Below, piece by piece: positions 17,698 to 23,794 of a DNA stretch of 64,000 nt. A program made the translations under genes and the position numbers. Position 1 is the first letter of the stretch, and each line of letters begins with the position of its first letter. The notes beneath the pieces were generated by a model. It was not told the origin of the DNA. It did not search any database and saw only the letters and a list, made by a program, of their open reading frames with translations. The stretch lies in the NCBI RefSeq assembly GCF_014653785.1, contig NZ_BNAS01000006.1:310001-374000 (forward strand), read 5' to 3'. Source of the stretch: Promicromonospora soli. Its GTDB lineage: Bacteria; Actinomycetota; Actinomycetes; Actinomycetales; Cellulomonadaceae.

Positions 17698-18360
17698 TCA
17701 GTGGGTGTGCTTGCTCGCCAGCTCGCGGAGCGCGGCGATCTCGGCCGGGATGTCCTCTGCCCCGTACACCGCCGAGCCCGCGACGAAGACGTTCGCTCCG
17801 GCGTCGGCTGCCCTCTCGATCGTGTCCCGGGACACTCCCCCGTCGACCTGGATCCACACGTCGAGCCCGGACTCGCTGACGGCCTGCCGGGCGCGCCGGA
17901 TCTTCGGGAGCGTGCCCTCGATGAACGACTGCCCGCCGAACCCCGGCTCGACAGTCATCACGAGGATCATGTCGACCTCGGCGAGCAGGTCGAGGTAGGG
18001 CTCCACGGGCGTCGCCGGCCGCAGCGCCACCCCCGCCCGCGCCCCCAGGCGGTGCAGCTCGCGGGCCAGGCGGACGGGTGCCTGCGCCGCCTCCGCGTGG
18101 AAGGTGACCGACGCCGCCCCGGCCTCCGCGAACCCGGGCGCCCACCGGTCGGGGTCCTCGATCATGAGGTGCGCGTCGAGCGGGACCGGCGACACTTTCG
18201 CGAGCCGCTCGAAGATCGGCAGCCCCAGCGTCAGGTTCGGCACGAAGTGGTTGTCCATGACGTCGACGTGCGCGTAGTCGGCGGAGGCGATCCGGCCCAG
18301 GTCGCGCTCGAGGTTCGCGAAGTCGGCGGACAGGATGCTGGGGGCGATGAGTGCTGCCAT
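17698..18360 (-). CDS. rpe: Ribulose-phosphate 3-epimerase
   Basis: 220-residue TIM barrel that interconverts ribulose-5-phosphate and xylulose-5-phosphate in the pentose phosphate pathway. Seen: [13 protein letters not shown], the metal/catalytic [37 protein letters not shown] and [11 protein letters not shown], so the catalytic Asp pair and metal-binding His residues are intact. The ATG at 18360 ([10 protein letters not shown]) is chosen by homology; no strong ribosome site is visible. In M. tuberculosis rpe joins rsmB and ribD directly; here accessory genes separate it on both sides. Confidence 0.96.
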
Positions 18361-18412
18361 GATGCCAGCGTAGGGCCCCATTCTTCGCGCCACCGACAGG
18401 CAGGGAGCAACG

Positions 18413-18841
18413 ATGATCCCCGAGGTGAACTACTGGGCGGTGATCCTGGCCACGCTGTCCACGCTGGTCGTGGGTTCGATCTGGTACACGCCCAAGGCGT
18501 TCGGCAACCGCTGGATGCGCCTGGCGAAGGTGGACCCCCAGGCCGCGAGGGCCGCAGGGATCTGGCCCATCGTCGTGACGGTCATCGTCAGCTTCCTGAC
18601 GGCCTGGGTGCTCGCCGGAGCCGTCTACATCTCGTGGGAGTTCTACCAGGGCAGCTTCGTCACGGCAGCGATCGTGACCGCGGTCCTGCTGTGGATCGGG
18701 TTCACGGCCGCCCGCATCATCACGCACGACGCGTTCGAGGGCCGCCCGGCCGCACTCACGACGCTGAACCTGGCGCACGAGCTGGTCACGATCCTGGTGA
18801 TGGCAGTGATCATCGGGGTGTGGCCGCCGGCGGGCGTGTGA
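18413..18841 (+). CDS. DUF1761 family membrane protein
   Basis: 142 residues with four hydrophobic helices (about 8-25, 52-72, 84-102, 118-138). The N-terminal pattern [20 protein letters not shown] followed by [10 protein letters not shown] is characteristic of DUF1761. The family has no established function. AGGGAG seven bases before the ATG supports the start. It is divergent from rpe across 52 bases, so the two share a promoter region. It is the first gene of the ~4-kb accessory patch between rpe and rsmB. Confidence 0.8.
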
Positions 18842-18848
18842 CGGTCCG

Positions 18849-18990
18849 TCAGCCACTCGGTGTGACCAGCCCGCTCTCGTAGGCGACCACGACCTGGACC
18901 CGGTCCCGCAGGTCGAGCTTGGTCAGGATCGGTTCGTCGTTGGTCACCTCGACCACGAGGGAGGACGGCGGTTCGGTACGCACCACCCCG
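18849..18990 (-). pseudogene. Kinase/response-regulator fusion remnant
   Basis: A minus-strand frame ending at 18849 reads ILTKLDLRDRVQVVVAYESG and then LVTPSG, which is the C-terminal end of a LuxR-type response regulator. Directly upstream in the same frame is SSLVVEVTNDEP, which resembles the ATPase-domain strand of a histidine kinase. The receiver, the phosphorylation site and most of both proteins are missing. The simplest reading is a deletion that joined a kinase to the tail of its downstream regulator, leaving a non-functional scrap. The left boundary of the kinase part is uncertain. Confidence 0.6.
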
Positions 18991-19003
18991 CGGGTGTGGC
19001 GCT

Positions 19004-19456
19004 CCCGGGGCGTACCGCACGGCGTTGGCGCTCTCGGACACTTCGGCTCGTCCAGCGATCACCGCGGACGAGCAGGAGAACAGCACGGTCGCCATCATGA
19101 CCGGCCTGATCGCCCTGCTCGCCACCGCGCTGTGCGCGGTCACAGCGCTCGGCGTGCTCAAGTCGCTCGGCATGACGCCGCGGCAGGTCCGGACCATGGT
19201 CGTCGTGTCGACGGTGCTGGTCGGCCTTGCCGCGGGGCTCCTGGCGGTCCCGGCAGGTACCGCCCTGCACTCGACAGTGATGCCCGCCATGGGCGACGCC
19301 GCACAGTCGGGCCTCCCCACATCCGTGCTGGACGCGTTCCGGCCGGCCGAGCTCGTCGCCCTCGCGGCGAGCGGCGTGGTCCTCGCGGTGCTGGGTGCGC
19401 TCCTCCCGGCGGGCTGGGCCGCTCGGACGAGTGTGGCGGCGGCGCTGCGAGCCTAG
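19004..19456 (+). pseudogene. Truncated FtsX-like ABC permease remnant
   Basis: The last ~145 codons resemble the C-terminal membrane domain of an FtsX/MacB-type permease: VAIMTGLIALLATALC, SLGMTPRQVRTMVVVST, then the final helix ALGALLPAGWAARTSVAAAL. The N-terminal two-thirds is absent and no start or ribosome site is visible. Family members usually read LGVLN...LGVLKSLGMTPRQ with ~16 residues between the two LGVL blocks; here only one remains (TALGVLKSLGMTPRQ), suggesting a deletion between short direct repeats. It abuts, head to head, the kinase/regulator remnant, as in the common ABC-exporter/two-component arrangement. Confidence 0.6.
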
Positions 19457-19607
19457 TGACACCGCAGCGGGAGCGCTTGGGCGACCGCTGCGCCGGCCTG
19501 GGCCTGATGGAGGGACGACTCAACTCGAAGACGGAGTCATCGTGCTTGCATCAGACCCAGTCCGGTTCAGACACCCGAACCGCGACATCAGCCGAACGGC
19601 CATCTCG
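19457..19607. other. 151-bp gap between FtsX remnant and nuclease gene
   Basis: No coding frame with recognisable homology and no clear terminator. This is where an immunity gene would be expected directly downstream of a contact-dependent toxin gene; none is visible on either strand. Composition shifts here from the local high GC to the lower GC of the nuclease 3' end. Confidence 0.4.
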
Positions 19608-22010
19608 CTAGGGGATCAGACAAGAACTCGTCCCGTTGTTAGTGACACGGAAGCCGAAACTGGGCCCTCCTGCAGTAACCCAGTGCTCTATCGGCAGCAC
19701 AATAAATTTCTCATCGTTACCCACCGCGCACTTCTTAAAGAAGCCATTGATGTCAGTTCCCTGAGAAGTCTCCTCTCCTTTCGGAACAATTTGACGAGAA
19801 GCCGTGATGCCCGAAAGGTCGACAGCCTGGTCCGTAGCCCAGAAGGGGAACTCATCACACACGTCTCCAAAAGGTTTAGGATCGCAAGGATTCGGCCGAA
19901 ACTTCACAAGGTTGAACCACTTATGGTTGTAGCCCTCTGCTTTAGCCTTGCTTCCACCTATGCTTCGTGCCGGGTAGTGCCACTGATACCGCTCAACGGG
20001 CCACGTTGAGCCAGTATTGAACATGGCATTGACAATATGCTCTCCGGTCTTAGGCATGGACGCGCCCGTGTAGTTCTTAGCGCCGGGGACGTAAACGGCG
20101 AACTCCGACTTGCACCCGTCAAAAGTCGCACCATTACCGCCCTGCTGCACGGAGCACGCGATGTCGATCATCCTCTTCAGCGCCACGTCATTGGCGCTTG
20201 CCCACCCGAAGGAGAGATTGTCCCGCCTAGCTATCTGGTTCGTGGTCTTTATTACTTCGCCGTACATCTGCAGGCTATTGTAGAACTCGCCATTCGACAG
20301 CCCCCAGTTGTCAAAGGCTTCGAAGTCTGTCGAGGCGTCGATGGGATACTCGAGAAGGCCGGCAGTGCCGAGTTCTTCCTCGAAGAGGAGCGCCAGAAGG
20401 ACTCCGAGAGCGGCGGCGCCGCCCACGGCCGCGGCCGAAACACCGATGGCCGATGCAGCGACGACGACTGTTCGTACCAGCACGGGCCTGGGTGCCACGT
20501 CCACAACGGCTGCCACTTGCGCTACGGGTGCGAGCACCAGGGCGCATGCACCGTCATGGCACCAGCTGACCGACTCGACCTGAACCGAACTCGTACCCAC
20601 GTTTTCAGCGTCGTCGAGCGACGAGATCACCGGGCCTCCCCCAGGAGGAGCAAGCGCGCGAAGGACACCGGTCAGGTCGTCCACGCACTCAACGATCTGG
20701 TCGCCGGACAAGGGTATAAAGGCGTCAAGGCACGAGCTGTCCTGAACGGTGTGGCAGCCCGCGAACACCTCGCTGCTACCCGTCGGCAGGGACACGCCGG
20801 CACGCGCGTCAGGCGCGACGTAGAAGGCGCCGCCCATTGCCGCGCATCGCGAACCTTCCGTAGCGATGAGCGCCCTCATCTTCGGGGGCACTACCTCCTC
20901 GCTGGTCGTCGTAGTGAACGAGCCCCGCATGGTCCGCTCCAGGGCGCCATCTTCCCCCAGCACTTCGACCCGGACCACATAGAGGGTTCCCTCCTCAAGG
21001 GGTGCGATCGGATAACCGATCACGTCCTGCGTCGTGCAAGGGATCGCAGGATCGCCGTTCTCGTCCTCGCAGAACTGGTCCCGGTCGAAGCTCTCGTACG
21101 ACCGCTCGTTGAGGAACACGCGGTAGCTGGCGTCCGCGGGATCATCCGCGTCCCAGAATGCGTTGGCACCGCCTTCCTCCACCTCGAAGGTGAGATCACC
21201 ATCAGACGGCGGCGGTGGCGATGACGCCTCAGTGGTGAAGGACACTGTGGCCGGCGTTGTCGAAATGTTGCCAGCCAGGTCGATGGCCACCACCGACACC
21301 GTGTGGGAGGTGGACGGTTCCAGCCCCGTGATCGTGTACGAGCGCGTGTCGACGGTAGACCGCTCCGGACTTCCGCCATCGACGGTGACCTCGTATCCAG
21401 CAAGGCCGTAATTGTCAGACGCGGCGCCCCACGTCACGGTGGCACCGGTCGAGCTGACGTCACCCACGGCAAGGCCGGGCACGTCGCTCGGTGGGATCAG
21501 GTCGACCACCGTGAAGTCGCGAAGAACCCTCGCGGATCGCTTGGGGTCGCGCTCGGCGCGGGCACAGATCGTGTTCTCGCCCAGGTGTGGCGGGCGCAGA
21601 GTCGTGGACCAGGACTGCGACCAGGCCGCCTCGCCCTCCGGCGGTGGGCCAAACGTGAAGTCCGACGCCGTCACCTCTTCGTCCGAGACGCCAACCATCG
21701 TCGCGTGCTTGTGCAGGATGCCATTGATCGCGATCTCGCCCCGTTCGTCGACCGCGACCTCCTCTTCGCTCGCGGGATGATCGACGCGGAGCCGGATCGA
21801 GCCGTGATTCTCTTCCGGCACGGTCATGTCGGTACACGCACCGTTCAACTGCCGCTGCTCCTGGGGCTCTTCGACCTCCGCAGCAGCTCTGACCTCCGCG
21901 GCTGCTTCGACGCCCTCGGCAGTCTCGGGACTTACCCACACGCCGTAGATGACAAGTGAAAACACAAGAGCAGTGCCCAACAAGGCCCCGCCAAGATATC
22001 GATGACGCAT
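19608..22010 (-). CDS. FN3 surface protein with C-terminal NucA/NucB-type nuclease domain
   Basis: 800 residues. In order: an N-terminal transmembrane/signal helix (about 7-24), a β-rich domain (about 50-165), a fibronectin type III domain (about 172-258, VTWGAASDNYGLAGYEVTVD), a second FN3-like domain (about 270-368), a Cys-containing region, a strongly hydrophobic Ala/Val segment (about 514-545), and a C-terminal domain with VCDEFPFWAT near residue 717 and SQGTDINGFF further on. The latter pattern is that of the secreted DNases NucA/NucB (family CDEYPFAST). Likely an exported DNase acting outside the cell or on a neighbour. The 3' end is lower in GC: 28 of 60 at 19681-19740, against 37 of 60 at 21181-21240 in the FN3 part. 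ATG at 22010 follows GGGGGAG; a GTG four codons upstream is possible. Confidence 0.75.
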   Translation of the reverse strand: MRHRYLGGALLGTALVFSLVIYGVWVSPETAEGVEAAAEVRAAAEVEEPQEQRQLNGACTDMTVPEENHGSIRLRVDHPASEEEVAVDERGEIAINGILHKHATMVGVSDEEVTASDFTFGPPPEGEAAWSQSWSTTLRPPHLGENTICARAERDPKRSARVLRDFTVVDLIPPSDVPGLAVGDVSSTGATVTWGAASDNYGLAGYEVTVDGGSPERSTVDTRSYTITGLEPSTSHTVSVVAIDLAGNISTTPATVSFTTEASSPPPPSDGDLTFEVEEGGANAFWDADDPADASYRVFLNERSYESFDRDQFCEDENGDPAIPCTTQDVIGYPIAPLEEGTLYVVRVEVLGEDGALERTMRGSFTTTTSEEVVPPKMRALIATEGSRCAAMGGAFYVAPDARAGVSLPTGSSEVFAGCHTVQDSSCLDAFIPLSGDQIVECVDDLTGVLRALAPPGGGPVISSLDDAENVGTSSVQVESVSWCHDGACALVLAPVAQVAAVVDVAPRPVLVRTVVVAASAIGVSAAAVGGAAALGVLLALLFEEELGTAGLLEYPIDASTDFEAFDNWGLSNGEFYNSLQMYGEVIKTTNQIARRDNLSFGWASANDVALKRMIDIACSVQQGGNGATFDGCKSEFAVYVPGAKNYTGASMPKTGEHIVNAMFNTGSTWPVERYQWHYPARSIGGSKAKAEGYNHKWFNLVKFRPNPCDPKPFGDVCDEFPFWATDQAVDLSGITASRQIVPKGEETSQGTDINGFFKKCAVGNDEKFIVLPIEHWVTAGGPSFGFRVTNNGTSSCLIP

Positions 22011-22078
22011 CGGCTCCCCCACCTCAAGTCATGCGCTGCACCACCCCCCTTGGGCCGGCTGGCCCAACCATGCCGCTC

Positions 22079-22225
22079 TTACGTTGTCGCAAGCAACGAA
22101 AGTGTGGCGAGCAGCACATCACCACTGAGGAGGCGGTCGACGACCATGGGCATACGGCAGAGCCAGCCATTCGCGAGGTACACCGCCCGAGGTGTCCGCT
22201 GTTCTCGATCACCCTCGGACATCAT
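22079..22225 (-). CDS. Possible 48-residue protein upstream of the nuclease gene
   Basis: An in-frame ATG at 22225 opens 48 codons reading MMSEGDREQRTPRAVYLANG and then WLCRMPMVVDRLLSGD, ending ATT-stop at 22079. The frame also stays open upstream of the ATG for at least 12 codons (AREVVNVSADR). No family is recognised and the ribosome site is weak. It lies 68 bases ahead of the nuclease gene on the same strand. It may be a small partner, the remnant of a longer gene, or chance. The remaining bases between rsmB and the nuclease hold nothing else I can identify. Confidence 0.25.
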   Translation of the reverse strand: MMSEGDREQRTPRAVYLANGWLCRMPMVVDRLLSGDVLLATLSLLATT

Positions 22226-22273
22226 GCGATCCGCCGAGACGTTCACAACCTCGCGAGCCAGTAGAGCTAGGCC

Positions 22274-23794
22274 CTACGCCGTGCGCCGCAGCAGCGTCAG
22301 GTGCATCGCGTCCGTGCCGTGCACGTGCGGCCACAGCTGCACGTCGTCGCGGTCCGACAGCGGGATCTCGTCCGCGGCACCCGCACGCATCACCGAACGC
22401 ACCGCGGCAGGGGTGTCCAGCCGCTCGACGTCGGCGCGCTTCTTCAGCACGTCGGAGACCACGAGCTGCGTCTCGGCGAGGTGCGGCGAGCACGTCACGT
22501 ACGCCACCACTCCCCCGGGCCGCACGGCGTCCAGTGCGGAGGTGAGCAGCTCGCGCTGCAGCCCGGTCAGCGCGGCGAGGTCCGACGGCGTCCGCCGCCA
22601 CCGGCTCTCCGGCCGACGGCGCAGCGCGCCCAGGCCGGTGCACGGTGCGTCGACGAGCACGCGGTCGTACGCCCCCGGCTCGTCGGCGCCGACCTCACGT
22701 CCGTCGCCGGTCCGGACCTCCTCGACCACGCCGTCGGGCAGCGCCGCCAGGGCGTTGGCGACCAGGCGGGCGCGGTGCGGAGCCACCTCGTTGGCGACCA
22801 GCGTCGCACCTCGTTCGGCGGCCAGTGCGGCCAGCAGGGCGGCCTTGCCGCCCGGGCCGGCGCACAGGTCGAGCCAGCGCCGGTCGCTGCCCTCCAGGGG
22901 CACCCCGGCAAGAGCGAGCGTCACGAGCTGGGAGCCCTCGTCCTGCACGCCCGCGAGCCCTTCACGGATCGCGGGAATCCCGGATGGGTCCGACCCTTCC
23001 AACCGCAGCGCGGTGGGCGCCCAGCGGCCGGCGACCAGGTCGACGTCGCCCCAGGCGGCCTCGTCGGACACGTCGACCAGCCCGGGCCGCGCCACCAGCG
23101 TCACGCGCGGTGAGACGTTGTCCGCGGCCAGCAGGTCGCCGATCTCGTCCACGCTGCGCCCGTTGCCGAGCAGCGCCTCCCGCATGGCGCGGGCGATCCA
23201 CAGCGGGTGCGACTCGGTGGCGGCCAGGCCGGTCAGGGCGTCGGGCGCCTCCTTCTCGAGGATCGACAGCCACTCGTCGAGCGGGCGCTCCGACACCCGG
23301 CGCAGCACCGCGTTCACCATCTGCGCCGGTCCTGCCCCCACGCGGTTGCGCGCCAGCCCGACCGTCTCGGAGACCGCCGCATGCACGGGCACGCGCATGC
23401 CGAGCAGCTGGTGGACGCCGAGCCGCAGCACGTCCAGCAGCGCCGGGTCCAGCCCCGGCAGCGGGCGGTCCACGCAGGAAGACAGGATGGCGTCGTACCG
23501 GCCGCGGAGGCGCAGCGTGCCGTAGGTGAGCTCGGTCGCGAAGCCGGCGTCGCGACCACGGATGTGCCGCTCGCGCAGCAGCGGGGGCAGCACCAGGTTC
23601 GCGTACGCGTCCGACTCGTCGACCTCGCGCAGCACGTCGAAGGCCGCCATCCGGGACGGGTCGGTGCGCTTGCGACGCTCCGACGGCGCCTGCGACGTGG
23701 ACGACCTGTCGCCGCGCGACCGAGCAGCGCTGCGCTCGCGACCTCGAGAGTTCCGGCGTGGATCGTCCTGGCGCGGGTGGGGGGTGTTCGACAC
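22274..23794 (-). CDS. rsmB: 16S rRNA (cytosine-967-C5)-methyltransferase
   Basis: 506 residues. A ~50-residue Arg/Ser-rich leader precedes a NusB-like RNA-binding domain (MAAFDVLREVDESDAYANLV, ~48-180) and a SAM-dependent m5C methyltransferase domain: LDLCAGPGGKA, VANEVAPHRA, DAPCTGLG with the Pro-Cys motif, and the catalytic VTCSPHL. It methylates C967 of 16S rRNA. Start GTG at 23794. It sits 49 bases after fmt in the same direction, the fmt-rsmB order found across Actinobacteria. In relatives rpe follows directly; here the 4-kb nuclease patch intervenes. Confidence 0.94.
   Translation of the reverse strand: MSNTPHPRQDDPRRNSRGRERSAARSRGDRSSTSQAPSERRKRTDPSRMAAFDVLREVDESDAYANLVLPPLLRERHIRGRDAGFATELTYGTLRLRGRYDAILSSCVDRPLPGLDPALLDVLRLGVHQLLGMRVPVHAAVSETVGLARNRVGAGPAQMVNAVLRRVSERPLDEWLSILEKEAPDALTGLAATESHPLWIARAMREALLGNGRSVDEIGDLLAADNVSPRVTLVARPGLVDVSDEAAWGDVDLVAGRWAPTALRLEGSDPSGIPAIREGLAGVQDEGSQLVTLALAGVPLEGSDRRWLDLCAGPGGKAALLAALAAERGATLVANEVAPHRARLVANALAALPDGVVEEVRTGDGREVGADEPGAYDRVLVDAPCTGLGALRRRPESRWRRTPSDLAALTGLQRELLTSALDAVRPGGVVAYVTCSPHLAETQLVVSDVLKKRADVERLDTPAAVRSVMRAGAADEIPLSDRDDVQLWPHVHGTDAMHLTLLRRTA

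Follow-up and report, generated by a model that had tools for sequence, protein, structure and literature searches.

Our analysis of the window, a 64,000-nucleotide stretch of Promicromonospora soli DNA, points to an actinomycete family whose exported proteins may be antibacterial and may work as toxin-immunity pairs, in which a protein with a NucA/NucB-type C-terminus would be the toxin and the product of an adjacent partner gene a new immunity protein. We put the probability of this reading at roughly 0.48. It is favoured by the occurrence of the partner beside the relatives' nuclease genes, with tight spacing and otherwise differing flanks, and also by the excess of partners over nucleases in Micromonospora (26 against 10), by lone partners, and by the remains of nuclease genes at two loci (L076 and the tail at L135). 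The copy in the window itself is without a detected partner, and an extracellular DNase is a serious rival.

Protein layout and active site

The nuclease gene is an open reading frame of 800 codons (19608..22010, minus strand, ATG at 22010) with GAGGTGGGGG upstream of its ATG. Residues are counted here from that ATG; P0001 numbering starts four codons upstream. From the N-terminus, and all on the minus strand, the protein comprises a signal peptide or signal anchor (residues 1-28, 21927..22010; highest 19-residue KD mean 2.01, within residues 5-28), a conserved N-domain (residues 58-172, 21495..21839), an FN3 domain (residues 173-264, 21219..21494), a second FN3-like stretch recognised by eye only and without a match to the fn3 model (residues 270-372, 20895..21203), a Cys-rich middle region (residues 373-490, 20541..20894), an internal Ala/Gly/Val hydrophobic segment at about residues 509-545 (core 519-545, 20376..20456; KD maximum 2.22) and a nuclease-like C-terminal part (residues 551-800, 19611..20360). 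A Pfam-A scan gave fn3 (PF00041) at P0001 183-252 with E 5e-10, above the cut-off, and DNase_NucA_NucB (PF14040) at P0001 715-775 (19698..19880, minus strand) with 34.5 bits against a cut-off of 23.8, the latter match spanning only profile positions 43-99 of 100. Residues 1-179, and with them the N-domain, had no Pfam match, nor had the Cys-rich middle, and a genome-wide search of the source genome found no second PF14040 protein. An AlphaFold model of the nuclease part was unusable (mean pLDDT 37).

The initial annotation had described a membrane-anchored FN3 protein with an internal membrane segment ahead of a NucA/NucB-like C-terminus, and had named PF14040 as the profile against which to check it. 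The two domain scores above cut-off and the hydrophobic N-terminus bear out an exported protein of this kind, export being predicted from sequence, and the internal segment is indeed present, with an equivalent in 17 of 17 family members. The term 'membrane-anchored' is one possible description: all 17 proteins have a hydrophobic N-terminal stretch, but a signal peptide that is cleaved off would fit it just as well.

The best matches to the FN3 domain were an exoglucanase model and a chitinase chain. Furthermore, a whole-protein search of the host family gave matches in 100 of 221 genomes, those listed falling in the FN3 region, the gene's own match excepted. Both results favour an extracellular DNase, secreted or surface-held, which like Bacillus NucB would degrade DNA as a nutrient or to remodel the matrix, its FN3 domains acting as spacers or in polymer binding as they do in chitinases and cellulases. 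We consider this the serious rival to the toxin-immunity reading, albeit an unlikely one. The cysteines also suit an extracellular fold. Fifteen Cys columns are conserved in 17 of 17 proteins and one more in 16 of 17; six columns lie in the middle region (17/17) and six within the nuclease part, the latter likewise invariant in four ordinary PF14040 domains. The six conserved cysteines of the nuclease part suggest that it probably folds outside the cytosol, and Cys conservation, which fits folding and acting outside cells, argues to that extent against a toxin-immunity pair.

The active site was compared with that of Bacillus NucB. PMC5758888 gives H53, D93, E94 and N117 as the residues used by BlNucB, and reports no significant nuclease activity for B. 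subtilis NucB changed at the equivalent positions, Asn to Ala included. The NucB columns were placed by aligning four ordinary actinomycete PF14040 domains to the 6ejs sequence, a weak match (E 0.17), and were carried over through an alignment of six ordinary PF14040 domains and eight family members. H658, D719 and E720, equivalent to H53, D93 and E94 of BlNucB, are invariant in all 17 family proteins. Residue 747, in the Asn117 column, is Glu, Ser, Gly, Ala or Thr and in none of the 17 is it Asn; one protein (L046) has Asn at residue 748, which would be relevant if the alignment were shifted by one. Among the other PF14040 loci of the host family the Asn motif was found by pattern in 25 of 28 and by eye in L166 and L173, while L153, an ordinary member, seemingly has Ser at this position. 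By its sequence family the window protein is nuclease-like, an atypical PF14040 member.

Since the Asn metal ligand is not conserved, nuclease activity is doubtful, which weighs against a toxin and against an extracellular DNase, as NucB needs this residue. It also raises a further explanation, that the NucA/NucB fold has been kept without catalysis as a DNA- or polymer-binding module, the partner having another role; the loss of activity in the Asn to Ala enzyme of B. subtilis points the same way. Nevertheless we regard this as improbable, given that His658, Asp719 and Glu720 are invariant, that the equally invariant E746, beside the Asn position, could act as a stand-in for the missing Asn, and that the ordinary member L153 seems to depart at the same place.

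Family, composition and the C-terminus

Twenty loci were examined, namely the window and 19 relatives (L040-L048 and L070-L079) from one Streptomyces plasmid and from Arthrobacter, Micromonospora, Actinoplanes, Streptomyces and Actinomadura genomes. Eight full-length relatives from these five genera can be aligned with the window protein over their whole length (49-58% identity) and share its architecture. Hence the combination of FN3, NucA/NucB-type domain and hydrophobic segment that the initial annotation did not recognise is real, but it is not private to the window. Members scoring E 1e-10 or better were found in one of 394 genomes sampled from the class (its own), in 10 of 151 Micromonospora genomes (one copy broken), and in four of 343 and one of 198 genomes of the genera Streptomyces and Arthrobacter; the three genus counts include seed genomes (3 in Micromonospora, 1 each in the other two), and all four score only some of the first-look candidates, so that members may be missed. 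No match was found in phages and none was confirmed in viral contigs, the plasmid matches came down to the one Streptomyces plasmid, and the phage proteins of PHROGs that match the protein do so in its FN3 region.

A recently swapped C-terminal domain had been proposed in the initial annotation, with uniform composition and conservation along the gene in relatives named as evidence to the contrary. We compared per-domain identities, trees of four parts of 17 proteins and the composition of the 17 genes. The 17 exclude two broken copies, L048 and L076, as well as L043, which is 98% identical to L042. Averaged over the eight relatives, identity to the window protein is 66% in the N-domain, 68% in FN3, 44% in the FN3-like stretch, 47% in the middle region, 35% in the hydrophobic segment and 53% in both nuclease stretches. 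Conservation thus extends over the whole gene (44-68% by domain once the signal and hydrophobic segments are set aside), with the nuclease part on a level with the middle region; judged by these alignments this is one intact family, not a recent patchwork.

The composition is not uniform. A recount reproduced exactly the earlier GC figures of 28/60 at 19681-19740 and 37/60 at 21181-21240. The nuclease gene is low in GC for its genome, and lowest at its 3′ end, and its GC3 of 0.73, compared with 0.89-0.96 for eight genes or gene pieces around it, marks it as foreign by composition, in agreement with the earlier view. Within the gene GC3 is 0.76 ahead of the last 245 codons and 0.66 in them; this shift of -0.10 is a larger fall than in any of the 16 relatives (-0.05 to +0.04), whose total GC is lower in the C-part by 0.01-0.05, only their GC3 being flat. 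Two further observations favour a swap in the window gene: the last 140 residues are nearest to L045 and L046 (55%) rather than the Arthrobacter protein L041 (51%), which is nearest in the N-part and middle, and at columns that are otherwise invariant the nuclease part has more departures than four controls do. However, all 16 relatives compared have a C-terminus of this same family, 48-57% identical to that of the window protein, which contradicts an exchange between different domain families, and no supported branch in the four-part trees moves the window C-terminus to another group. The window and Arthrobacter proteins are joined in the middle-part tree (99/96) and weakly in the C-part tree (36/91). 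We therefore consider a recent swap extremely improbable; exchange with a close, lower-GC member of the family is a possible source of the 3′ fall in GC3.

For Streptomyces and Actinomadura the N-part and C-part trees of the relatives disagree on the grouping (100/99 versus 99/96), a hint of exchange between family members. All 20 loci carry the same C-terminus, but they were found with the C-terminal part. No other C-termini were seen on the shared N-terminus in these loci, mostly retrieved in that way, and a search of plasmids with the N-terminal 179 residues gave one hit, of the same architecture. To the extent that such loci can show it, this uniformity counts against the toxin-immunity reading.

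In the window the nuclease gene lies between rsmB (22274-23794) and rpe (17698-18393). The same interval holds a DUF1761 gene (18413..18841, plus strand; PF08570, E 1.5e-23) and a short gene piece corresponding to only the C-terminal part of an FtsX permease (19025..19456, plus strand; PF02687, E 4.1e-8, profile positions 28-116 of 120), which is convergent with the nuclease gene and lies on the flank that in relatives carries the partner. Relatives of rpe and rsmB adjoin each other at the Actinoplanes locus L045. With up to six candidates scored per genome, no member of the family was found in 12 other genomes of the genus; the sole hit, in G192, spans query residues 66-131 only, and other PF14040 proteins occur in three of the 12 (G185, G186 and G189). 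The foreign composition together with this absence argues for horizontal arrival, and the gene may have been transferred into the rpe-rsmB junction without a partner, or may have lost its partner later.

A partner gene in the relatives

In 18 of 19 relatives a gene for an acidic protein of about 240 residues, starting MLDD, lies 3′ of the nuclease gene and is co-directional with it. Both genes are intact in 16 of these 18; in L076 only the nuclease gene is broken, and in L048 both are. Spacing is tight in 14 of the 16 intact pairs, where the partner begins at -1 to +16 bases relative to the nuclease stop; in L046 and L078 it begins 231 and 287 bases past the nuclease gene, respectively. All 17 partner proteins have a pI of 4.3-4.7 and none has a hydrophobic segment; they are also without a signal peptide. 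The flanks show no such constancy, no neighbour family occurring in more than four of the 15 of 19 relative loci compared (open reading frames of at least 100 codons, those overlapping the nuclease-partner pair being set aside).

No meaningful family score for the partner was obtained from Pfam or NCBIfam (17/17), and of two partners scanned PADLOC gave no family and PHROGs nothing better than E 0.24. Kinship to SUKH was considered but found no support: hhalign against a profile of 20 PF09346 sequences (from 30 loci, eight not being chosen and two too short) gave a probability of 1.3%, on a shallow partner alignment (Neff 1.9) with which distant kinship could be missed, and the Pfam scans gave no SUKH match. 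The AlphaFold model of the partner was unusable (mean pLDDT 40).

From its position and sequence properties the partner looks like an antidote or immunity protein, and we treat it as a candidate for that role. Its lack of similarity to any named family nonetheless counts against the toxin-immunity reading. So does its phylogeny, which does not track the nuclease part: the partner tree groups five Streptomyces proteins (100/98) like the N-part tree and unlike the C-part tree, and by this topology sides with the N-part. Distance correlations of the partner with the N, middle and nuclease parts (0.86, 0.89 and 0.90; 15 pairs, omitting L043 and L076) do not discriminate among the parts of the nuclease protein.

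The partner also occurs alone. Its profile matches 26 of 151 Micromonospora genomes (E 0.001), four of them only as fragments, and all 10 nuclease-bearing genomes fall within these 26, G709 being the one with a broken nuclease gene. Thirteen intact partners, from 12 genomes of which G742 has two copies, lack a nuclease gene in the stretch fetched, as judged with the full-length nuclease profile and with some stretches stopping at a contig end (L135 about 2 kb upstream). The same profile found no other C-termini near 17 partner loci; L146 gave weak FN3-type matches (E 0.006 or worse), and at L135 a 21-residue nuclease tail lies directly 5′ of the lone partner (E 0.005). In eight pairwise comparisons of lone partners dN/dS was 0.16-0.51, which indicates that they are kept as proteins. 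By eye, eight of the 13 (L137-142, L144 and L145) have common flanking genes, so that they probably stem from few independent events, and their weight for a toxin-immunity pair is reduced correspondingly. An immunity gene is expected to outlast its effector, a gene for a chaperone or secretion helper less so, and orphan immunity genes have been described (PMC12247911). An extracellular DNase leaves unexplained both these lone partners under purifying selection and the presence of a partner without export signal beside nearly all relatives.

The partner admits another explanation, that the protein is a surface sensor whose signal peptide is cleaved and whose internal segment is a stop-transfer helix, the cytosolic nuclease being restrained by the partner until a signal leads to cell suicide. 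The single hydrophobic segment between extracellular-type modules and nuclease in all 17 proteins fits such an arrangement, as does a partner without export signal. However, the nuclease part has conserved cysteines, several members carry Arg/Lys N-terminal of the segment, contrary to the topology needed, lone partners are common, and for the window copy the searches gave no partner to hold it in check. We consider a sensor very improbable.

For the window copy a search of its own genome with one partner sequence, run without a positive control, found no partner, and the partner profile gave nothing better than E 1.2 on the window and on the 17.6-kb stretch of L041. The lack of a detected partner at these two loci counts against a toxin-immunity pair and is explained at least as well by an extracellular DNase. 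In columns of residues 661-800 that are invariant in the other rows, the window departs at 7/49 and L041 at 6/49, compared with 1/50 in L045, 1/50 in L047, 2/51 in L046 and 0/49 in L079. In a post hoc test the pooled difference between partnerless and partner-bearing proteins (controls 4 of 200) gave a Fisher p of 2e-4. Comparison of the nuclease part with the rest of the same protein gave p 0.009 for L041 and 0.26 for the window; L045 and L047 depart more than L041 in most other domains. The departures in the window nuclease would fit a constraint that was relaxed or altered after the partner had gone.

Likeness to known systems and a possible mechanism

PF14040 is known chiefly for secreted and sporulation DNases. 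The window protein shares with Bacillus NucB and other PF14040 DNases the Pfam match, the His and Asp-Glu motif and an export signal, and with ordinary actinomycete members the conserved Cys pattern. It differs from Bacillus NucB in being an 800-residue modular protein with a hydrophobic segment, without the conserved Asn and with a partner in its relatives; mature BlNucB has 110 residues according to PMC5758888.

The initial annotation had drawn a likeness to polymorphic toxins. Common to both are an export signal, a C-terminal nuclease-type domain, a candidate immunity gene downstream in relatives and orphan partners, and this part of the proposal remains plausible, the partner gene of the relatives being distributed as expected of an immunity gene. 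As points of difference, no variation of the C-terminus was seen in loci mostly retrieved by that part, the partner matches no Pfam immunity family, and the window copy has no immunity gene found downstream, although 18 of 19 relatives have a candidate. We take Tox-NucA, with its residues GH, N, N and E, to be of the Anabaena/Serratia type rather than PF14040. Those residues, and Imm36, SUKH and NTF2 as immunity proteins listed for Tox-NucA, are given by Zhang et al. 2012 (PMC3482391).

Two other systems bear comparison. In contrast to the umbrella toxin UmbC, the window protein has no ALF-repeat match in Pfam up to E 1, where we presume that Pfam holds the ALF model. Streptomyces umbrella toxins are likewise exported actinomycete proteins with an immunity gene downstream of some toxin genes, but PMC11062931 describes 77 toxin families on one scaffold, against the single C-terminal family seen here. 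Bacteroidales orphan immunity genes, as described in PMC12247911, resemble the lone partners in that immunity-like genes are kept without an effector; they belong to another phylum, and the partner here fails the SUKH profile test.

In a toxin-immunity pair, the nuclease-like protein would be exported by Sec, its N-terminal modules would bind the surface of the target cell, and the hydrophobic segment would help the nuclease-like domain into the target, where it would act as a nuclease. The partner would protect the producer and its kin by neutralising this domain in their cytosol. The window copy could be harmless to its producer if it acts outside only, is countered by an unrelated gene or is diverging from a toxin role. 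The toxin and extracellular DNase readings need not exclude each other, and may each apply to different members of the family.

A more elaborate picture, which we offer tentatively and consider rather unlikely in its entirety, is that of a weapon thinly scattered among actinomycetes: one polypeptide chain, exported by Sec, with its own binding modules and entry segment and a NucB-type domain with a rebuilt, Asn-less active site, accompanied by a new acidic immunity family that persists as orphans, the window and Arthrobacter copies being escapees that lack immunity and have a drifting nuclease. FN3 and PF14040 are both already known; their union with the hydrophobic segment, the Asn change and the partner is apparently new, in that a literature search for FN3 with PF14040 and a hydrophobic segment, for the unconserved Asn and for the partner found none of them, a weak negative.

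Were the two proteins a toxin and its immunity protein, the family would represent a simple one-protein delivery design for Gram-positive bacteria together with a new immunity family, and would link PF14040 to antagonism between bacteria. With the Asn unconserved and the rest of the active site invariant, the family puts a direct question to biochemistry, and the window copy, beside which the searches detected no partner, offers a natural control for the role of the partner.

Genomic setting of the nuclease gene

The region of the window around the nuclease gene (17698-23794) was compared with the locus of an Actinoplanes relative, L045 (1176-12105). The housekeeping genes rpe and rsmB are common to the two clusters, as are fmt and priA, which were recognised by eye. 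The window gene lies between rsmB and rpe, unlike the Actinoplanes relative, which is found between a priA-like gene and a metK-like gene (the latter named by eye). That both genes lie in a similar housekeeping cluster may reflect chance or a common hot spot.

A short FtsX permease gene piece (19025-19456, + strand), which comprises only the C-terminal part of the permease (PF02687), is oriented towards the nuclease gene. It looks like the remnant of a larger permease gene.

Decay and possible exchange among relatives

In Actinomadura livida (L048, 7422-9415) the nuclease gene is broken up, with a portion absent, and the partner gene, encoding the candidate immunity protein, is present only as fragments. 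The metal-binding Asn (BlNucB N117 column) is apparently replaced by Ser also in L153, an ordinary PF14040 protein from the host's family.

The trees of the N-terminal and nuclease-like C-terminal parts conflict, with good support on both sides, over the placement of L040/L077 and of L047. This conflict suggests that C-terminal parts have been exchanged inside the nuclease family, in Streptomyces or Actinomadura.
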